IMG/VR virus record: IMGVR_UViG_3300030116_003298
Span: 1-31,937 of that record
From: a virus
Strand: one strand, 5' to 3'
Length of the DNA: 31,937 nt
Part shown: piece after piece, positions 15,844-21,318 of the stretch
Layout: every line of letters starts with the position of its first letter
How positions within the stretch are numbered: position 1 is the stretch's first letter
The notes under the pieces: generated by a model
Told to the model about the DNA's origin: nothing
The model's input: only the letters and a program-made list of their open reading frames with translations
Database searches by the model: none
Program-made: the position numbers and the translations under genes

Positions 15844-17046
15844 TTATTGTATATAATACTTCCCTTTGTTCGGATTATCTAAATGGTAAATAACATTATA
15901 TCTTGCAGCATCTATTGCGTGATTCCATTTATCAATGTATAGCTTACTGCCTTTGTCTGCGTATGCATAATTATTCATTTCTTTTGCAATATTCGTGCTA
16001 TTTTCTTCAACGATAATCTCAAAGTCTTGCATTCTAACTATACCCGATTCTATCGTTCCCTTTTTTACTGCCTGTATATTTACCTTTGCATATCTTAAAT
16101 CTTCTATCAATCTTGGTTCTGCAGAATCGGCAATTATCAACTTATCTCCCACCCTGTCTTTTATCATTGTTCCTAGTATATGTGTTTTAATTCCTCTTTG
16201 GTATATGTGTTCTTTGAGGTAAATCTTATTCTTCTTTTTATCAATAGCCACCTCAATTAGTGTGTCAGGGTCTACCGAGAACCCAAAGTCCATTCCACAA
16301 GATGTTTGTAAGCCATCGGGATTGAACTCACCGAAACTCCAATTACTAAATACTACCCCCTCGGCTTTGTTTAGCCAACCACCCAAGATAATGTGATTAT
16401 ACTTTTCGGGATTCTTTACCTTGATTTCATCTAATTGTCTGATGTAATTTTCGCTTAGGTTTTCGGCATTATCCATATAGGTAGTGTGAATGTAAGTAAC
16501 ATCCTTCTTTACCCCATTCGTTCCTGCTTCAACACCTGCATCTTCAAAGAATCTTTGATAGATAAAATGCTCTTTCGTTGCAGGATTCATTATCATAATT
16601 ACTCTGTTATGGATATCCTTTTGCCGAACAGATAAATCTATGGTATCAAATATCTTCTCATCAACTAATTCTTCGGCTTCATCTAACACCCAAGTAGTTA
16701 CACCCTGCAAAGATTTAAGATTAGCCACTTGGTTTCCCGAACTTGTTTTTATACCCTTAAAGATTATTCTGCTTCCTGTCTTTTTGTAAATTATCTCATC
16801 TCTCCTTATTATAAATCCACCTTCTGCTTGAAACAATTTTATCTTTTCTAGGAACTCGGGTATAATTGATATGTGTGCAGATGTCATCGTGTAACGAGTA
16901 AACAGAATGACGTGTCCTACCTCATTCATTAGAGAACAAAGTATAGTGTTTACAGAATATGATTTCCCCGAACTACGACCTCCTGTTATTATAAAGTATC
17001 TTGTTGGGTTATCAAATACTAAATACTTTTTATTAATCCCTGTCAT
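15844..17046 (-). CDS. terL: Terminase large subunit
   Basis: This protein is the DNA-packaging motor ATPase and headful nuclease. With the ATG at 17046 it is 400 aa; a GTG two codons upstream is the alternative start. Walker A is GGRSSGKS (residues 22-29) and Walker B WVLDEAEE has Asp122-Glu123. The RNase-H-like nuclease Asp residues are seen in GMDFGF (Asp253), IIADSAEP (Asp307) and NHAIDAARY (Asp379). The pattern fits the PBSX-type Terminase_3 group. The start overlaps the small subunit gene. All key residues are present. Confidence 0.95.
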   Translation of the reverse strand: MTGINKKYLVFDNPTRYFIITGGRSSGKSYSVNTILCSLMNEVGHVILFTRYTMTSAHISIIPEFLEKIKLFQAEGGFIIRRDEIIYKKTGSRIIFKGIKTSSGNQVANLKSLQGVTTWVLDEAEELVDEKIFDTIDLSVRQKDIHNRVIMIMNPATKEHFIYQRFFEDAGVEAGTNGVKKDVTYIHTTYMDNAENLSENYIRQLDEIKVKNPEKYNHIILGGWLNKAEGVVFSNWSFGEFNPDGLQTSCGMDFGFSVDPDTLIEVAIDKKKNKIYLKEHIYQRGIKTHILGTMIKDRVGDKLIIADSAEPRLIEDLRYAKVNIQAVKKGTIESGIVRMQDFEIIVEENSTNIAKEMNNYAYADKGSKLYIDKWNHAIDAARYNVIYHLDNPNKGKYYIQ

Positions 17047-17431
17047 CCCCACGGAACACTTTCATCATTTGATTGAAATTGAATCCCGAATCTATCGTGC
17101 CTTCAATCTCTATACTGTCTTTTGGTTTACCATCAATCTGCTCCATAATCATTTGAATAGCCTTCAAGCTATCCCCACCTTTCTTACTCATAGCCCAAGA
17201 TTGTAGCTTCATAGCTATTTGCATTTGTGTAGGAACTTTCATAACAACAGAACCATCTTCATTTACATTTACTATTTGACTTGCAGGGATAGTAACATTC
17301 CCTTCGCTTTCTAATAAATCTTTGACTTGTGCCCTTATTGATATTGGACGACCACCTTTTGTCGCATCATTGTTCGGAAACTGTGTGTCTTTTCCAACCA
17401 TCGGGTCAATGTCTTTTCCAAATTTAGCCAT
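17033..17431 (-). CDS. terS: Terminase small subunit
   Basis: This 132-aa protein directly precedes and overlaps terL. It has a polar N terminus with TKGGRPISIRAQVKDLL, a pattern common in small terminases of this type, and a C-terminal helical part (QIAMKLQSWAMSKKGGDSLK) followed by a flexible tail. Small subunits recognise phage DNA and load it on the large subunit. The N-terminal GRP-type stretch may bind DNA. Its start lies 8 bases past an 11-base-period repeat. Confidence 0.8.
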   Translation of the reverse strand: MAKFGKDIDPMVGKDTQFPNNDATKGGRPISIRAQVKDLLESEGNVTIPASQIVNVNEDGSVVMKVPTQMQIAMKLQSWAMSKKGGDSLKAIQMIMEQIDGKPKDSIEIEGTIDSGFNFNQMMKVFRGDDRD

Positions 17432-17487: not shown

Positions 17488-18297
17488 CTAAATTCCTTTA
17501 AATGCTTTCAGAGGGTAAAATATAAGTGAATTACGATATCCCTTTTCTCTTTCTTTTATAATAGGTGTTACTCCGTGAGTATTCTTCCAAGCAGGATAAA
17601 CCAACATTGAATCATCTGCCTGTTCAAATGTTGCGTTGTAATCGGGAACGTGTAAAGAACCACCTTTTGAATCTCTCCTTTTAGTTAGAATTACATTTAC
17701 TGTTCCAACAATATTTCCTGTATCTCTATGAAATGGTGCAGCAATATTAAAGTTTGATATACTGCTTGTAAATATATTTCCAAATCTCCATTTACTATCT
17801 ATGTCCTCAAATAATTCCACTTGCCTTTTGTGTATGTGTGGTGTTATTTCTTTTAAGACTTCTTCCGACAACAAACTTATTGCCCACATAGATTTGATAA
17901 ATATTCTTGCACTCTCTACCCTGTGTACTGCAGATATGTTTGGGTATGGTCTACGCATATGTGGTTTTGGTGCTATACTTCCTAATATTGTACTCATCTG
18001 CACAGTACCTTTTTTCATAGCTTCCTTTCTTGTCATACCATCTTTATAAACTTTCTGAAAAACATCACTTCTTTCAAGTAAAGATTTTGGTACGTTGTCG
18101 CTTTGAAATTCTTTATTTGCTATCGCTAACAACAGGCTTAATTTTTTACTATACTTTTTTATGTCTTTAACATAGAATCCAACCACCTCACCATCTACCT
18201 CTAGTAAACAATCTTCTGAAACATTAGCTTCTATGTATGGACAATCTTGACCTATTTTCGTTTCGTGTTCTACCTGTGTTAGCTTTAGTTTTTTCAT
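17488..18297 (-). CDS. TET/JBP-family 2-oxoglutarate/Fe(II) dioxygenase (DNA base hydroxylase)
   Basis: This 269-aa enzyme should hydroxylate the methyl group of thymine or 5-methylcytosine in DNA. The C-terminal double-stranded beta-helix carries the iron ligands His190-x-Asp192 (PFHRDTGN) and His241 (NTHGVTP), and Arg255 (YRNSLIFYPL) for 2-oxoglutarate. The family mark GGSLHVPDYN (212-221) lies between. The N-terminal half includes ILGSIAPKPHMRRPYPNISA, typical of phage TET/JBP proteins. It is joined to the TAGT gene by an ATGA overlap and followed by terminase genes. The family and its residues are clear; the target base is not shown by sequence. Confidence 0.9.
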   Translation of the reverse strand: MKKLKLTQVEHETKIGQDCPYIEANVSEDCLLEVDGEVVGFYVKDIKKYSKKLSLLLAIANKEFQSDNVPKSLLERSDVFQKVYKDGMTRKEAMKKGTVQMSTILGSIAPKPHMRRPYPNISAVHRVESARIFIKSMWAISLLSEEVLKEITPHIHKRQVELFEDIDSKWRFGNIFTSSISNFNIAAPFHRDTGNIVGTVNVILTKRRDSKGGSLHVPDYNATFEQADDSMLVYPAWKNTHGVTPIIKEREKGYRNSLIFYPLKAFKGI

Positions 18298-19019
18298 TTT
18301 ACAATTTTATTTAAAGATTTAGCGAATCCTTTTATGTCAATTCTAGCATCTATCCTTCCTTTTTTATTTACAAGTTTTGCGTAAGGATGCCATTTTTTAG
18401 TAATGTTTTTTGCCCATTCAATATCTCTTTTGTTTTGATACAATTCAAATAAGCCACCTTCATTACTCCCGACATTAGGACAAGAAAACCAAAAGTGGTT
18501 AAATCTCAAAACTCCATTACCATTTTTTATTGTTTGTAATTGAAAATCTCTATCCTCTTTAGTGTTCTCCTCATATTTCCAATCTATTTTTTTTACATTC
18601 ATAAGGACACATACTTCTGCGAACTTCCTGTTTACTGAATAAGATGTTTTTTCGTGCCACGCGTGTTGAGTGTAATTTATACCTATCAATTCAAAAGGTA
18701 ATTTTTTTGCTCTTTCTAGAATGTCAAACCAAATAGAAGCATCTTTTTTTACAGTCTTTCCGTTGTATATTCCAAAAGACGACACATCATCATCTGAAAA
18801 AATAACCCATTCCTCATTATTTTCTTTTGCATAATTCAACATAAAATTTCTAACATAAGTAACTCCCTTGTCGTTCTCTTTAATATTGACTTTGTTAGGC
18901 ACGTCATATTCTTCAAACTCTTGTGGCTCTACAAAATGAATTACTTCTATACCTACATCATTAAAAAGTTTGTAAGTTTTTGTGTTGAATCTTCCTTTGG
19001 TTGGTATGTAACAAATCAT
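18294..19019 (-). CDS. TET-associated glycosyltransferase (TAGT), GT-A fold
   Basis: The frame is open from 19085, but the ATG at 19019 overlaps the previous stop (ATGA) and gives the family start MICYIPTKGRFNTKTYKLF, so I use it (241 aa). The metal-binding acidic triad is Asp76-Asp77-Asp78 (VIFSDDDVSS), preceded by GVTYVRN. The C-terminal part carries EDRDFQLQ and NVGSNEGGLFELY, as in TAGT proteins. Such enzymes are thought to add a sugar to the hydroxymethyl group made by TET/JBP enzymes. The next gene is exactly that oxidase, coupled by ATGA. The sugar donor cannot be read from sequence. Confidence 0.87.
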   Translation of the reverse strand: MICYIPTKGRFNTKTYKLFNDVGIEVIHFVEPQEFEEYDVPNKVNIKENDKGVTYVRNFMLNYAKENNEEWVIFSDDDVSSFGIYNGKTVKKDASIWFDILERAKKLPFELIGINYTQHAWHEKTSYSVNRKFAEVCVLMNVKKIDWKYEENTKEDRDFQLQTIKNGNGVLRFNHFWFSCPNVGSNEGGLFELYQNKRDIEWAKNITKKWHPYAKLVNKKGRIDARIDIKGFAKSLNKIVK

Positions 19020-19738
19020 ATTTCTTCCGACTTTAAATAAAACGTATCTTTGATATGTAGTTTTGGGTTTACAGAATGTGCCCAAGAACAGGAAACATAA
19101 TTTTCAAAATAATAATGATTCCTTTCTACCTTTTTCCATTTATCATTTTTCCATTTAGTGAAAATATAATCTTTTGCAGGTTGGTAATTAGGCATAACTT
19201 TCTTCATAATTTTACCCATATATCGTGGACCTGTTGTGTATAAAACAAATCTTGCTTTTCTGACATTATAAACTTCCATATCAGATTTGGCTTTGTAGTT
19301 TTTTTGACAATTATCTATCAAAACTTTCCATAATTCAAATCCTTTTTTAGAACCCATAAAATCATTTTGAACAAATTCATTGTGGTTAGGAATTAATCCC
19401 CTAAGAGAATAGGAAAAAAATGGTCTATCAAGTATGTCATTTATTCTCCTTATAGGAATTAAATCCAAATCAACATAAACACCTCCCAAAAAATACAATA
19501 TCACAAACCTAACATAATCTATTCTCTGAATATCATATCGCATAGACTTATAGAAATCATATTCTTTTGGGAGATTGTTTTTTATTAATTCATCGCATTC
19601 TTCTTCCGACCATAATTTATACTCAAAATCGGGATACAAATTTTTTATCCTAGAATGACTTTCATTGAATAAAGGTATCTCTGAAATATCTTTTCCGTGT
19701 AAGTCAAAATATATTTGATGAATTTTTTTGGGTATCAT
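19016..19738 (-). CDS. GT32/OCH1-like glycosyltransferase (DXD type)
   Basis: This 240-aa GT-A enzyme starts MIPKKIHQIYFDLHG. It has YPDFEYKLWSEEE near residue 35, RYDIQRIDYVRFVILYFLGG near 67-86, and the metal-binding Asp90-Leu-Asp92 in YVDLDLIPI. This is the pattern of the GT32 (OCH1-like, Gly_transf_sug) group, which transfers hexoses. No signal peptide or membrane segment is seen, so it acts in the cytoplasm. ATGA overlaps on both sides bind it to the ParB and TAGT genes, suggesting it extends or varies the sugar on modified DNA. Action on a cell or virion glycan is the alternative. Confidence 0.82.
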   Translation of the reverse strand: MIPKKIHQIYFDLHGKDISEIPLFNESHSRIKNLYPDFEYKLWSEEECDELIKNNLPKEYDFYKSMRYDIQRIDYVRFVILYFLGGVYVDLDLIPIRRINDILDRPFFSYSLRGLIPNHNEFVQNDFMGSKKGFELWKVLIDNCQKNYKAKSDMEVYNVRKARFVLYTTGPRYMGKIMKKVMPNYQPAKDYIFTKWKNDKWKKVERNHYYFENYVSCSWAHSVNPKLHIKDTFYLKSEEI

Positions 19739-20343
19739 TTAAGATTTTTGAAAGCATTTAAAATAATCAAACCTACATCTTTACCCTCTTTTCTAGCATC
19801 GTCTGTCAATCTTCTAGCTTGGTCGTAATGTTCGGGATTAAATTCTAAACATATTGCTCTCTTAATATTCCCTTCTTTTAAATCAATAACACCATCCAAA
19901 TCCAAATCTTCTAGAACAGAGTAATCTATATTCTTGTCACTAATACTAGAATGTAATCCCCATTCCTCTATTTGTGATTCATCTAATTCATCTTCTAATA
20001 ATTGAAAATCAAAATCAATATTAGTTTTTGCAGTTTGATTGTCTGCTAATGCAAACTCTCTACCTTCGGGAGTGCTTAAATCAATGTCATTTCTTTTTAC
20101 GGCTATCAAAGTTTTGCCGTCAGTTTCTACGATTTTAACATCTTCCAAACCTAACTCTCCAAAATTTTCGGTGGTTTTGTTTCCTGCAATTATACGATTA
20201 TTCTTATCAATTAAAATTGAACGACCTGCACCAAATTTTGATAATGATTTTTCCATAAGAGATTTACCATACTGCGTTCCCTTATTGAAATTTTTATCAT
20301 CAAATTTTAAGTCTGTGATTTTACTTTTCTTCATATGCTTCAT
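19735..20343 (-). CDS. Stand-alone ParB-like domain protein
   Basis: This 202-aa protein has a ParB-type N-terminal domain: KFGAGRSILIDKNNRIIAGN (residues 36-55) and EFALADNQTA. In many phages this domain is fused to a DNA methyltransferase. Here the C-terminal part (from about residue 150, ending ARKEGKDVGLIILNAFKNLK) has no methylase motif. It leads the base-modification operon by ATGA coupling to the GT32-like gene. It may bind DNA or set sequence specificity; nuclease or nucleotide-binding activity cannot be excluded. Start at 20343 or the Met at 20334; both overlap the upstream gene. Confidence 0.8.
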   Translation of the reverse strand: MKHMKKSKITDLKFDDKNFNKGTQYGKSLMEKSLSKFGAGRSILIDKNNRIIAGNKTTENFGELGLEDVKIVETDGKTLIAVKRNDIDLSTPEGREFALADNQTAKTNIDFDFQLLEDELDESQIEEWGLHSSISDKNIDYSVLEDLDLDGVIDLKEGNIKRAICLEFNPEHYDQARRLTDDARKEGKDVGLIILNAFKNLK

Positions 20344-20710
20344 ATACTTTTTTAAGTTTATCTACATATTCACGAACACATCCACCACAACCCATATCAT
20401 CATCAATTCTTTTATTGAATATTCTTCTTGCTATTTTCGCTAAAGTTATCCATTCTAAAGGTGCTACACTTGTTGGCTTCCCACTAAAGAATTCATCTAG
20501 AATCTCGTATTCGTATTTATCTAAACATTTAACTTTTGATTTAAAAAGATTGTTTAGTTTTTCCTTTCTTTCTTCACAACCACAGTCATCTCCAAATACA
20601 GTTTTTACTGCTTTTTTGATTCCTGTTGCTTCTGTAATTTTTTCTACCACATCACCTAATCCTTCAACTTTGGCTTTTTTTGTGGTTTTCTTTTTTGTTT
20701 CTTTTTTCAT
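20321..20710 (-). CDS. Small cysteine-rich protein, function unknown
   Basis: This 129-aa protein has a Lys-rich head (KKETKKKTTKKAK), a short element GLGDVVEKITEATGIKKAV, then DDCGCEERKEKLN with Cys43 and Cys45, and MGCGGC with Cys108 and Cys111. The cysteine pairs suggest a bound metal (zinc or iron-sulfur). Similar small proteins with a DCGCEERKEKLN core occur in Bacteroidetes phages. It overlaps the ParB gene by 23 bases, so it may belong to the base-modification operon. No function is recognised. Confidence 0.7.
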   Translation of the reverse strand: MKKETKKKTTKKAKVEGLGDVVEKITEATGIKKAVKTVFGDDCGCEERKEKLNNLFKSKVKCLDKYEYEILDEFFSGKPTSVAPLEWITLAKIARRIFNKRIDDDMGCGGCVREYVDKLKKVYEAYEEK

Positions 20711-20712
20711 AT

Positions 20713-21318
20713 TTATTTTATTAGTTCATAATCTTTGTTTAGGAAGTCTATAAAATCTTCCCCTACCTTTTCCTTTAATCTTAATTTACAATTCTTTAAA
20801 GTGTTAAAAACTGACGTCAAACTTATTCCCGTTTCATTACTTAATATCCTCATACTCCTACCTTCTTTAAGGTATATCTCAAACAACAATTTGTCGTACC
20901 AATGCCATTCGTTTAATTCATCTTCTACTTTCTGTAATAATATATTGTATGCCCTTACATTTTCGCTACCATCTATTGCTGCTATATCAAAATCCTCGCC
21001 TAATCTTATGACTTTCTCTTTAGTTTTACATCTTTGTTTTAGGTGGTTCATAGAAACTCTTTTCAAAGTAATCCACATATACACCATATTTACCTCTCCG
21101 TCTGCATTTAAAACTCTTTCACAAATTGGTAAATCTTTGTATTTTTCGTTTATTCTTTTATCGTTTGGTTTGTGTTTTTTCGTGCCTAATTGAGATAATT
21201 CTATGTAAGCATCTTGGACTATATCTTCGGTGTATTTGTTTTTGGTGTTTTCGGGAAATGAACGTACTATTTTTAAGTATTCATTATGTTTTTTTGAAAC
21301 CACACTAAACCAATCCAT
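20713..21318 (-). CDS. Sigma-70-like RNA polymerase factor
   Basis: This 201-aa protein has a region-2-like helix near residues 28-42 (KYTEDIVQDAYIELSQL), a middle ITLKRVSMNHLKQR helix, and a C-terminal region-4-like helix-turn-helix (GRSMRILSNETGISLTSVFN, then LKNCKLRLKEKV). That is the layout of short ECF-type sigma factors. It lies just before the modification and packaging genes, so it may switch host polymerase to the late genes. No TTTG-type host promoter is seen in front of those genes, which fits. A DNA-binding regulator without sigma activity is the alternative. Confidence 0.7.
   Translation of the reverse strand: MDWFSVVSKKHNEYLKIVRSFPENTKNKYTEDIVQDAYIELSQLGTKKHKPNDKRINEKYKDLPICERVLNADGEVNMVYMWITLKRVSMNHLKQRCKTKEKVIRLGEDFDIAAIDGSENVRAYNILLQKVEDELNEWHWYDKLLFEIYLKEGRSMRILSNETGISLTSVFNTLKNCKLRLKEKVGEDFIDFLNKDYELIK

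Follow-up and report, generated by a model that had tools for sequence, protein, structure and literature searches.

A ParB–TET/JBP operon with two glycosyltransferases in an IMG/VR virus record, a probable DNA base hypermodification system of a small phage

What do a ParB-like protein, two glycosyltransferases and a TET/JBP dioxygenase do together, directly upstream of the terminase genes of a small phage? The question is raised by the IMG/VR virus record IMGVR_UViG_3300030116_003298, the whole 31,937-base stretch of which (classed linear; hereafter the window) was analysed. On its minus strand, four genes are transcribed in the order ParB, GT32-type glycosyltransferase, TET-associated glycosyltransferase (TAGT) and TET/JBP, followed by terS and terL. 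An initial annotation, made from the letters of the window and their translations, had read these four genes as one operon. This was confirmed: each of the three junctions (19735–19738, 19016–19019 and 18294–18297) is ATGA on the coding strand, and every detail of that description that was checked was right. The same gene order recurs in many contigs, which excludes a chance arrangement. An alternative TTG start for TAGT at 19085 was rejected, because matches to its homologues begin only around the ATG at 19019.

We consider that these genes probably form a DNA base hypermodification operon, in which oxidation of thymine is followed by the addition of sugars by TAGT and GT32, with the ParB-like protein as partner. 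The TET/JBP enzyme would oxidise the 5-methyl group of a pyrimidine in the phage DNA, most likely converting thymine to 5-hydroxymethyluracil; the hydroxyl so formed would receive from TAGT a sugar that GT32 would probably extend to a disaccharide. The product would most likely be a (di)glycosylated hydroxymethyl pyrimidine, and it is fair to infer that it would hide the phage DNA from host nucleases. The proposed logic, including its first step, is that of the kinetoplastid base J pathway, in which JBP and a glucosyltransferase act on thymine in DNA by oxidation and then glycosylation. The window differs from that pathway in probably using two sugars and a ParB partner.

The four residues that the initial annotation had singled out in the dioxygenase (His190, Asp192, His241 and Arg255) are all present and are invariant in 60 homologues, where they make up the HxD...H iron triad and the 2-oxoglutarate arginine. 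Scored by itself, the window protein lies 3 bits under the cut-off of the Pfam profile Tet_JBP (PF12851; 8.5e-8, 32.0 bits against 34.9). Its assignment to TET/JBP holds through its relatives, fold and residues: relatives at about 55–60% identity, in G001 and G007, pass the cut-off with 35.5 and 36.3 bits. While a phmmer search of the PDB with the single sequence returned nothing relevant, a profile of the homologues matched TET2 (1.5e-6) and, weakly, CMD1. In a Foldseek search of the PDB with an AlphaFold2 model (pLDDT 94), ranks 1–26 were taken by CcTet, TET2, NgTET1 and CMD1, with AlkB and FTO lower. The doubt left by the Pfam score is removed by the invariant residues, the PDB profile matches and the modelled structure; by these residues, its profile and its predicted fold, the 269-aa protein is a genuine TET/JBP dioxygenase. 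The refuting outcome named with the initial annotation, HMM searches that place this protein outside TET/JBP, did not occur. Asn195 of the window protein (in HRDxxN) presumably matches Asn1387 of TET2, a correspondence that is not used as evidence here.

A queuine/7-deazaguanine route was suggested by the best PHROG match, phrog_6059, and by RefSeq names; it was rejected, as sequence and fold are those of TET. The label "queuine tRNA-ribosyltransferase" is carried by TET/JBP proteins in NC_020857.1, NC_020847.1, several mycobacteriophage and Microbacterium RefSeq records and phrog_6059. For these proteins it is very probably wrong, and it seems to have passed from one annotation to another. 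The substrate deserves more thought, since CcTet, the top structural match, was crystallised with N6-methyladenine DNA, and an enzyme of this kind might act on that base, or on RNA, instead of on the 5-methyl group of a DNA pyrimidine. We regard this as highly improbable: TET2, NgTET1 and CMD1, crystallised with 5-methylcytosine-type DNA, match nearly equally well, and the partner glycosyltransferases would be expected to require a stable hydroxyl handle.

Both glycosyltransferases score above their Pfam cut-offs, which bears out the families first proposed for them: TAGT, whose gene adjoins that of TET, matches PF20691 (4.1e-14, 53.4 bits, cut-off 27.5), and the GT32-type protein matches Gly_transf_sug (PF04488; 1.5e-13, 51.7 bits, cut-off 23). 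The DDD and DLD motifs reported earlier in the two proteins are present and conserved in alignments of their homologues. In the TAGT motif at residues 76–78, D77 and D78 are invariant in the 20-sequence alignment A6, and the three positions are conserved in 86, 100 and 98% of 80 sequences; in the GT32 motif GGVYVDLD, D90 and D92 are invariant in 19 sequences. Searches of the PDB with TAGT, by phmmer of the single sequence and by profile, returned nothing relevant. The GT32 family profile matched an initiation-specific alpha-1,6-mannosyltransferase (3e-8), and a search of the INPHARED phages with GT32 gave no match.

In order to see how these genes are arranged elsewhere, IMG/VR was searched separately with TET, TAGT, GT32 and ParB by short peptide patterns. 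The best 80 matches per search were taken, redundant and partial contigs included, so that the counts below are descriptive; HMM presence calls among the fetched loci used profiles built from those same loci. A GT32 of the type seen in the window (at least about 38–39% identity over most of its length, which excludes three weaker full-length matches, L271–L273, at 36–38%) lies next to TAGT in 60 of 60 stretches, corresponding to all 45 distinct viral contigs. Counting contigs fetched twice, the order is GT32-ParB-TAGT-TET in 35, ParB-GT32-TAGT-TET, as in the window, in 7, and ParB-TET-GT32-TAGT in 5, while 6 have the type of TET found in Nonlabens phage P12024L and the others are cut or rearranged. 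A chance linkage would not be expected to outlast such rearrangement of gene order, and the earlier proposal of one pathway for TAGT and GT32 is supported by their adjacency on 45 of 45 contigs. Between the P12024L-type TET and GT32, a gene of about 150 aa was seen (L133:4073–4534 and L134:5544–5999).

The relation between the two transferases is not symmetrical: TAGT commonly occurs without GT32, and a GT32 of this type was never seen without TAGT. GT32 is therefore likely to act after TAGT, and probably adds a second sugar to the one placed by TAGT. Two successive sugars on one base are known from T-even phages, in which TAGT is thought to add the second (PMC13390438). It might be argued that GT32 is not a DNA enzyme at all, glycosylating instead a surface or virion component and sitting in the operon by chance, or that it is an alternative first transferase for the hydroxyl used by TAGT. 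The more distant GT32s (below about 39% identity; L272, L273 and L277 onward) sit elsewhere, outside TET operons, and the solved relatives recovered by the profile search are not described as DNA enzymes. Such a view has to explain why TAGT adjoins GT32 on all 45 contigs, in several gene orders and with two clades of TET, and we find it improbable.

The operon of the window is one form of a wider architecture, ParB-[slot]-TET-terS-terL, which recurs in well over 100 of the fetched IMG/VR stretches. Among 56 loci from the TET search, dereplicated at 95%, the slot holds TAGT in 23, nothing in 10, an FkbM methyltransferase in 9, a kinase and/or ADDT in 8, another glycosyltransferase in 3 and TAGT with a sulfotransferase in 3. 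Pfam confirms FkbM, TAGT, sulfotransferase and ADDT as slot enzymes; the kinases, P-loop proteins that match no specific family, are so named for the ADDT that they accompany, and the third glycosyltransferase (c27) has no Pfam match, its name being a reading of its sequence. These kinds of enzyme (TAGT, FkbM, sulfotransferase, P-loop kinase and ADDT) decorate hydroxyl or phosphorylated hydroxymethyl groups, which supports the proposed pathway. Mapped onto a quickly built TET tree, in which some branches are long, the slot contents require no fewer than 21 changes, where 6 would do had each arisen a single time. The TET nearest to that of the window (L004, 73–74% identical) has a kinase in its slot and no glycosyltransferases. 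Thus, the core is stable and the decoration is swapped.

Two further arrangements of the slot were observed. A Sulfotransfer_2 protein (4e-15) is encoded between a TAGT-like glycosyltransferase and TET at L013:5435–5998, and likewise in L011, L012, L014 and L079, an arrangement from which a DNA base carrying a sulfated sugar would be predicted. At L010:4509–6014, a single protein of 501 aa, encoded directly before TET and preceded by a 294-aa gene, combines an ADDT transferase with a P-loop kinase-like domain.

Table 1 Genes of the operon and the adjoining terminase genes in the window.
Feature	Position	Strand	Description
ParB-like protein	19735..20343	-	202 aa; ParB/Spo0J-type N-terminal domain and conserved C-terminal helical region
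GT32-type glycosyltransferase (Gly_transf_sug)	19016..19738	-	240 aa; DLD motif D90/D92; probable second sugar transferase
TAGT (TET-associated glycosyltransferase, PF20691)	18294..19019	-	241 aa; SDDD motif; probable first sugar transferase onto hydroxymethyl base
TET/JBP 2-oxoglutarate/Fe(II) dioxygenase	17488..18297	-	269 aa; H190-x-D192, H241, R255
Putative terS	17033..17431	-	called by position only, without family match; 56 bp past operon
terL (Terminase_3)	15844..17052	-	genomic context; conserved downstream of TET

Several cultured phages carry relatives of this operon. In the actinophages Rhodococcus phage Tonitrus and Gordonia phage CaiB, as in the window, close-packed ParB-like and TET/JBP genes lie upstream of the terminase (PMC9302106, PMC11955845), and these pre-terminase operons also have 4-bp overlaps (PMC9302106). 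Their TET proteins are 29–34% identical to that of the window over the matched part. Unlike the window, they have neither TAGT nor GT32, and decoration falls to aGPT-Pplase2/ADDT and a DNA kinase; PF18724 (ADDT) was not found in the window, where GT32 and TAGT occupy the slot, so its cassette is not of the actinophage type. The Prochlorococcus phages MED4-117 and MED4-184 share the order ParB-[slot]-TET-small gene-terL (ParB 29% and TET 45–49% identical), but their slot holds a single FkbM-type methyltransferase and no glycosyltransferase. In P12024L (Inhavirus), TET adjoins TAGT as in the window; however, this TET is of another clade (25% identical over 118 aa), has no ParB or GT32 alongside and is followed, with TAGT, by an N6/N4 methyltransferase, and the unit lies away from the terminase. 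P12024L and its sister phage P12024S differ at this one spot: P12024L (L154 16409–18674) has TET-TAGT-N6/N4 methyltransferase and P12024S (L155 16313–17452) an ATPase-GNAT fusion. In L023, too, a TET is preceded by a kinase and a GNAT gene, so the fusion may itself be a base-modification gene.

The ParB-like protein of the window had no relevant Pfam match when searched alone, matched phrog_620 among the PHROG families (2.7e-14) and gave weak Foldseek matches (2e-4 and above); its family profile matched the structures of Myxococcus ParB (1.9e-10) and Spo0J (2.1e-9). The GxxR nucleotide-binding motif is absent from the window copy, which reads GNKT where the family has GGNMR/GNMR (Arg in 92% of 80 sequences), and because of this replacement its binding of a nucleotide is doubtful. 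A subfamily with GRSILIDKNNxIIAGNK, lacking the motif arginine, is made up of the window protein (19735–20343) and those of L016, L032 and L091.

ParB is tied both to TET and to the terminase, and for this reason we propose that it is probably a DNA-bound partner that would bring the oxidase to the phage DNA, or couple modification to packaging. The search with ParB alone brought in 76 new loci: TET is present on 68, and the remaining 8 end 1–1760 bp after ParB. The two genes also occur together in actinophages and cyanophages, and ParBc domains keep company with further genes for DNA modification in phages, where their role has been called unknown (PMC12783734). The usual position of the gene, just upstream of the terminase block, would also suit a gene for packaging, partition or regulation that happens to precede the terminase and takes no part in base modification. 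That the TET-TAGT unit of P12024L has no ParB, and that the window copy is without the conserved arginine, would also fit a bystander; the first of these indicates that ParB is not needed for every TET. Set against the near-constant presence of TET beside ParB at loci that are not cut off, its recurrence in two further phage groups and the company of ParBc domains elsewhere, this is a genuine but lesser possibility, and we retain the role of a partner of the oxidase.

Which base would be modified? If the operon modifies DNA, thymine is the likelier target on grounds of gene absence and gene association: C5-methyltransferases (C5-MTases) are mostly absent and sister operons carry ADDT and a kinase. 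No match to PF00145 was found in the window, a probably incomplete record; short phage C5-MTases gave no significant match when searched against it, and no small C5-MTase or PPC motif lies hidden in a real gene there. C5-MTases are likewise absent from seven complete cultured TET phages (MED4-117, MED4-184, P12024L, Tonitrus, MO526, CaiB and Adawi), and a search of 31 records for a thymidylate-synthase-type hydroxymethylase found none. ADDT (PF18724) and the kinase, with which related TETs share operons, belong to families of the 5-hydroxymethyldeoxyuridine pathway, and the authors of the Tonitrus study tie such genes to thymidine hypermodification (PMC11955845).

Several points weigh against the pathway as we draw it, besides the ParB-less unit of P12024L. 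The literature search turned up biochemical data neither for this operon nor for close relatives of it. The phage TET system already published (Burke et al. 2021, as reported in PMC12730594) modifies phage DNA with TET and glycosyltransferases, as proposed here; unlike the window, where none was found, it uses a C5-MTase and acts on 5-methylcytosine. In principle, 5-hydroxymethylcytosine could also be a substrate for the kinase and ADDT. The absence of a C5-MTase from the window is not proof, since the linear record probably lacks a few kb. Finally, 30 longer IMG/VR records were examined, of which 5 matched; with L137 dropped for want of a TET, C5-MTases occur in 4 of 29, three of them through short proteins of 212–222 aa. 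These short C5-MTase-like proteins were seen in L150 (241–1560, two in tandem), L151 and L152.

The same pathway could therefore be imagined on cytosine, with 5-methylcytosine made by a methyltransferase of the host, or by one that the phage encodes in the stretch absent from the record, and then converted by TET to 5-hydroxymethylcytosine for glycosylation by TAGT and GT32. Besides the system of Burke et al. and the four records with a C5-MTase, this has in its favour that glucosylated 5-hydroxymethylcytosine is the presumed substrate of TAGT in T-even phages (PMC13390438). The C5-MTases in IMG/VR, where present, lie outside the operon, however, and together with their absence from the window and the seven cultured phages, and the pairing of related TETs with ADDT and kinase, this makes cytosine rather unlikely and leaves thymine as the base we favour.

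As a tentative extension, the whole family may be a phage counterpart of base J synthesis, in which a ParB-guided TET oxidises thymine and the slot determines what follows: (di)glycosylation (TAGT, or TAGT with GT32), methylation (FkbM), sulfation of a sugar (TAGT with sulfotransferase) or phosphorylation and amino-acylation (kinase with ADDT). Related phages would then differ by swapping one cassette, and the phage of the window would make disaccharide-hydroxymethyluracil.

The nearest cultured phages found were the Nonlabens phages P12024S and P12024L (terL 62%, portal 35%), with genomes of about 35.7 kb, which were isolated on a marine flavobacterium named Persicivirga sp. A DUF3127 protein of the window is annotated in both as well. 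Judged from these sequence relationships, the window belongs to a small phage of flavobacteria, and the order of the genes, compared with theirs, suggests that no more than a few kb are missing, from between the portal and lysis genes. When GTDB genomes were searched for a prophage or host, a single match resulted, a metagenome-assembled contig labelled beta proteobacterium (L118), which is uninformative on the host; Rfam and tRNA searches of the window found none. Upstream, the ParB gene overlaps the gene at 20321–20710 by 23 bp. The product of that gene (129 aa, Cys-containing) and that of 20713–21318, which is weakly sigma-factor-like, recur upstream of ParB in many related contigs.

The initial annotation had also suggested that the gene combination might be new, and here the results gave it no support. 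The association of TET with TAGT is known and is the source of the latter's name, and the pairing of GT32 with TAGT is widespread in IMG/VR and takes the exact gene order of the window on several occasions. ParB and TET in pre-terminase operons, moreover, have been published for actinophages (PMC9302106, PMC11955845). No published account of the GT32–TAGT pairing or of the swapped slot was found in a literature search outside which key papers of 2013–2022 fell. The version with two glycosyltransferases is thus a variant of known DNA armour, built on a ParB and TET core that is widespread in phages. If the proposed pathway is correct, it would place glycosylating, base-J-like chemistry in small aquatic phages and offer a clean comparison in which one oxygenase family, in near-identical neighbourhoods, is coupled to about six decorating chemistries. 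Two questions would come within direct reach of experiment: is thymine or 5-methylcytosine the substrate of the phage TETs linked to ParB, and what is the task of ParB next to genes for DNA modification in phages (PMC12783734)? New DNA glycosyltransferases, and perhaps sulfotransferases for DNA sugars, would moreover be of use as reagents.

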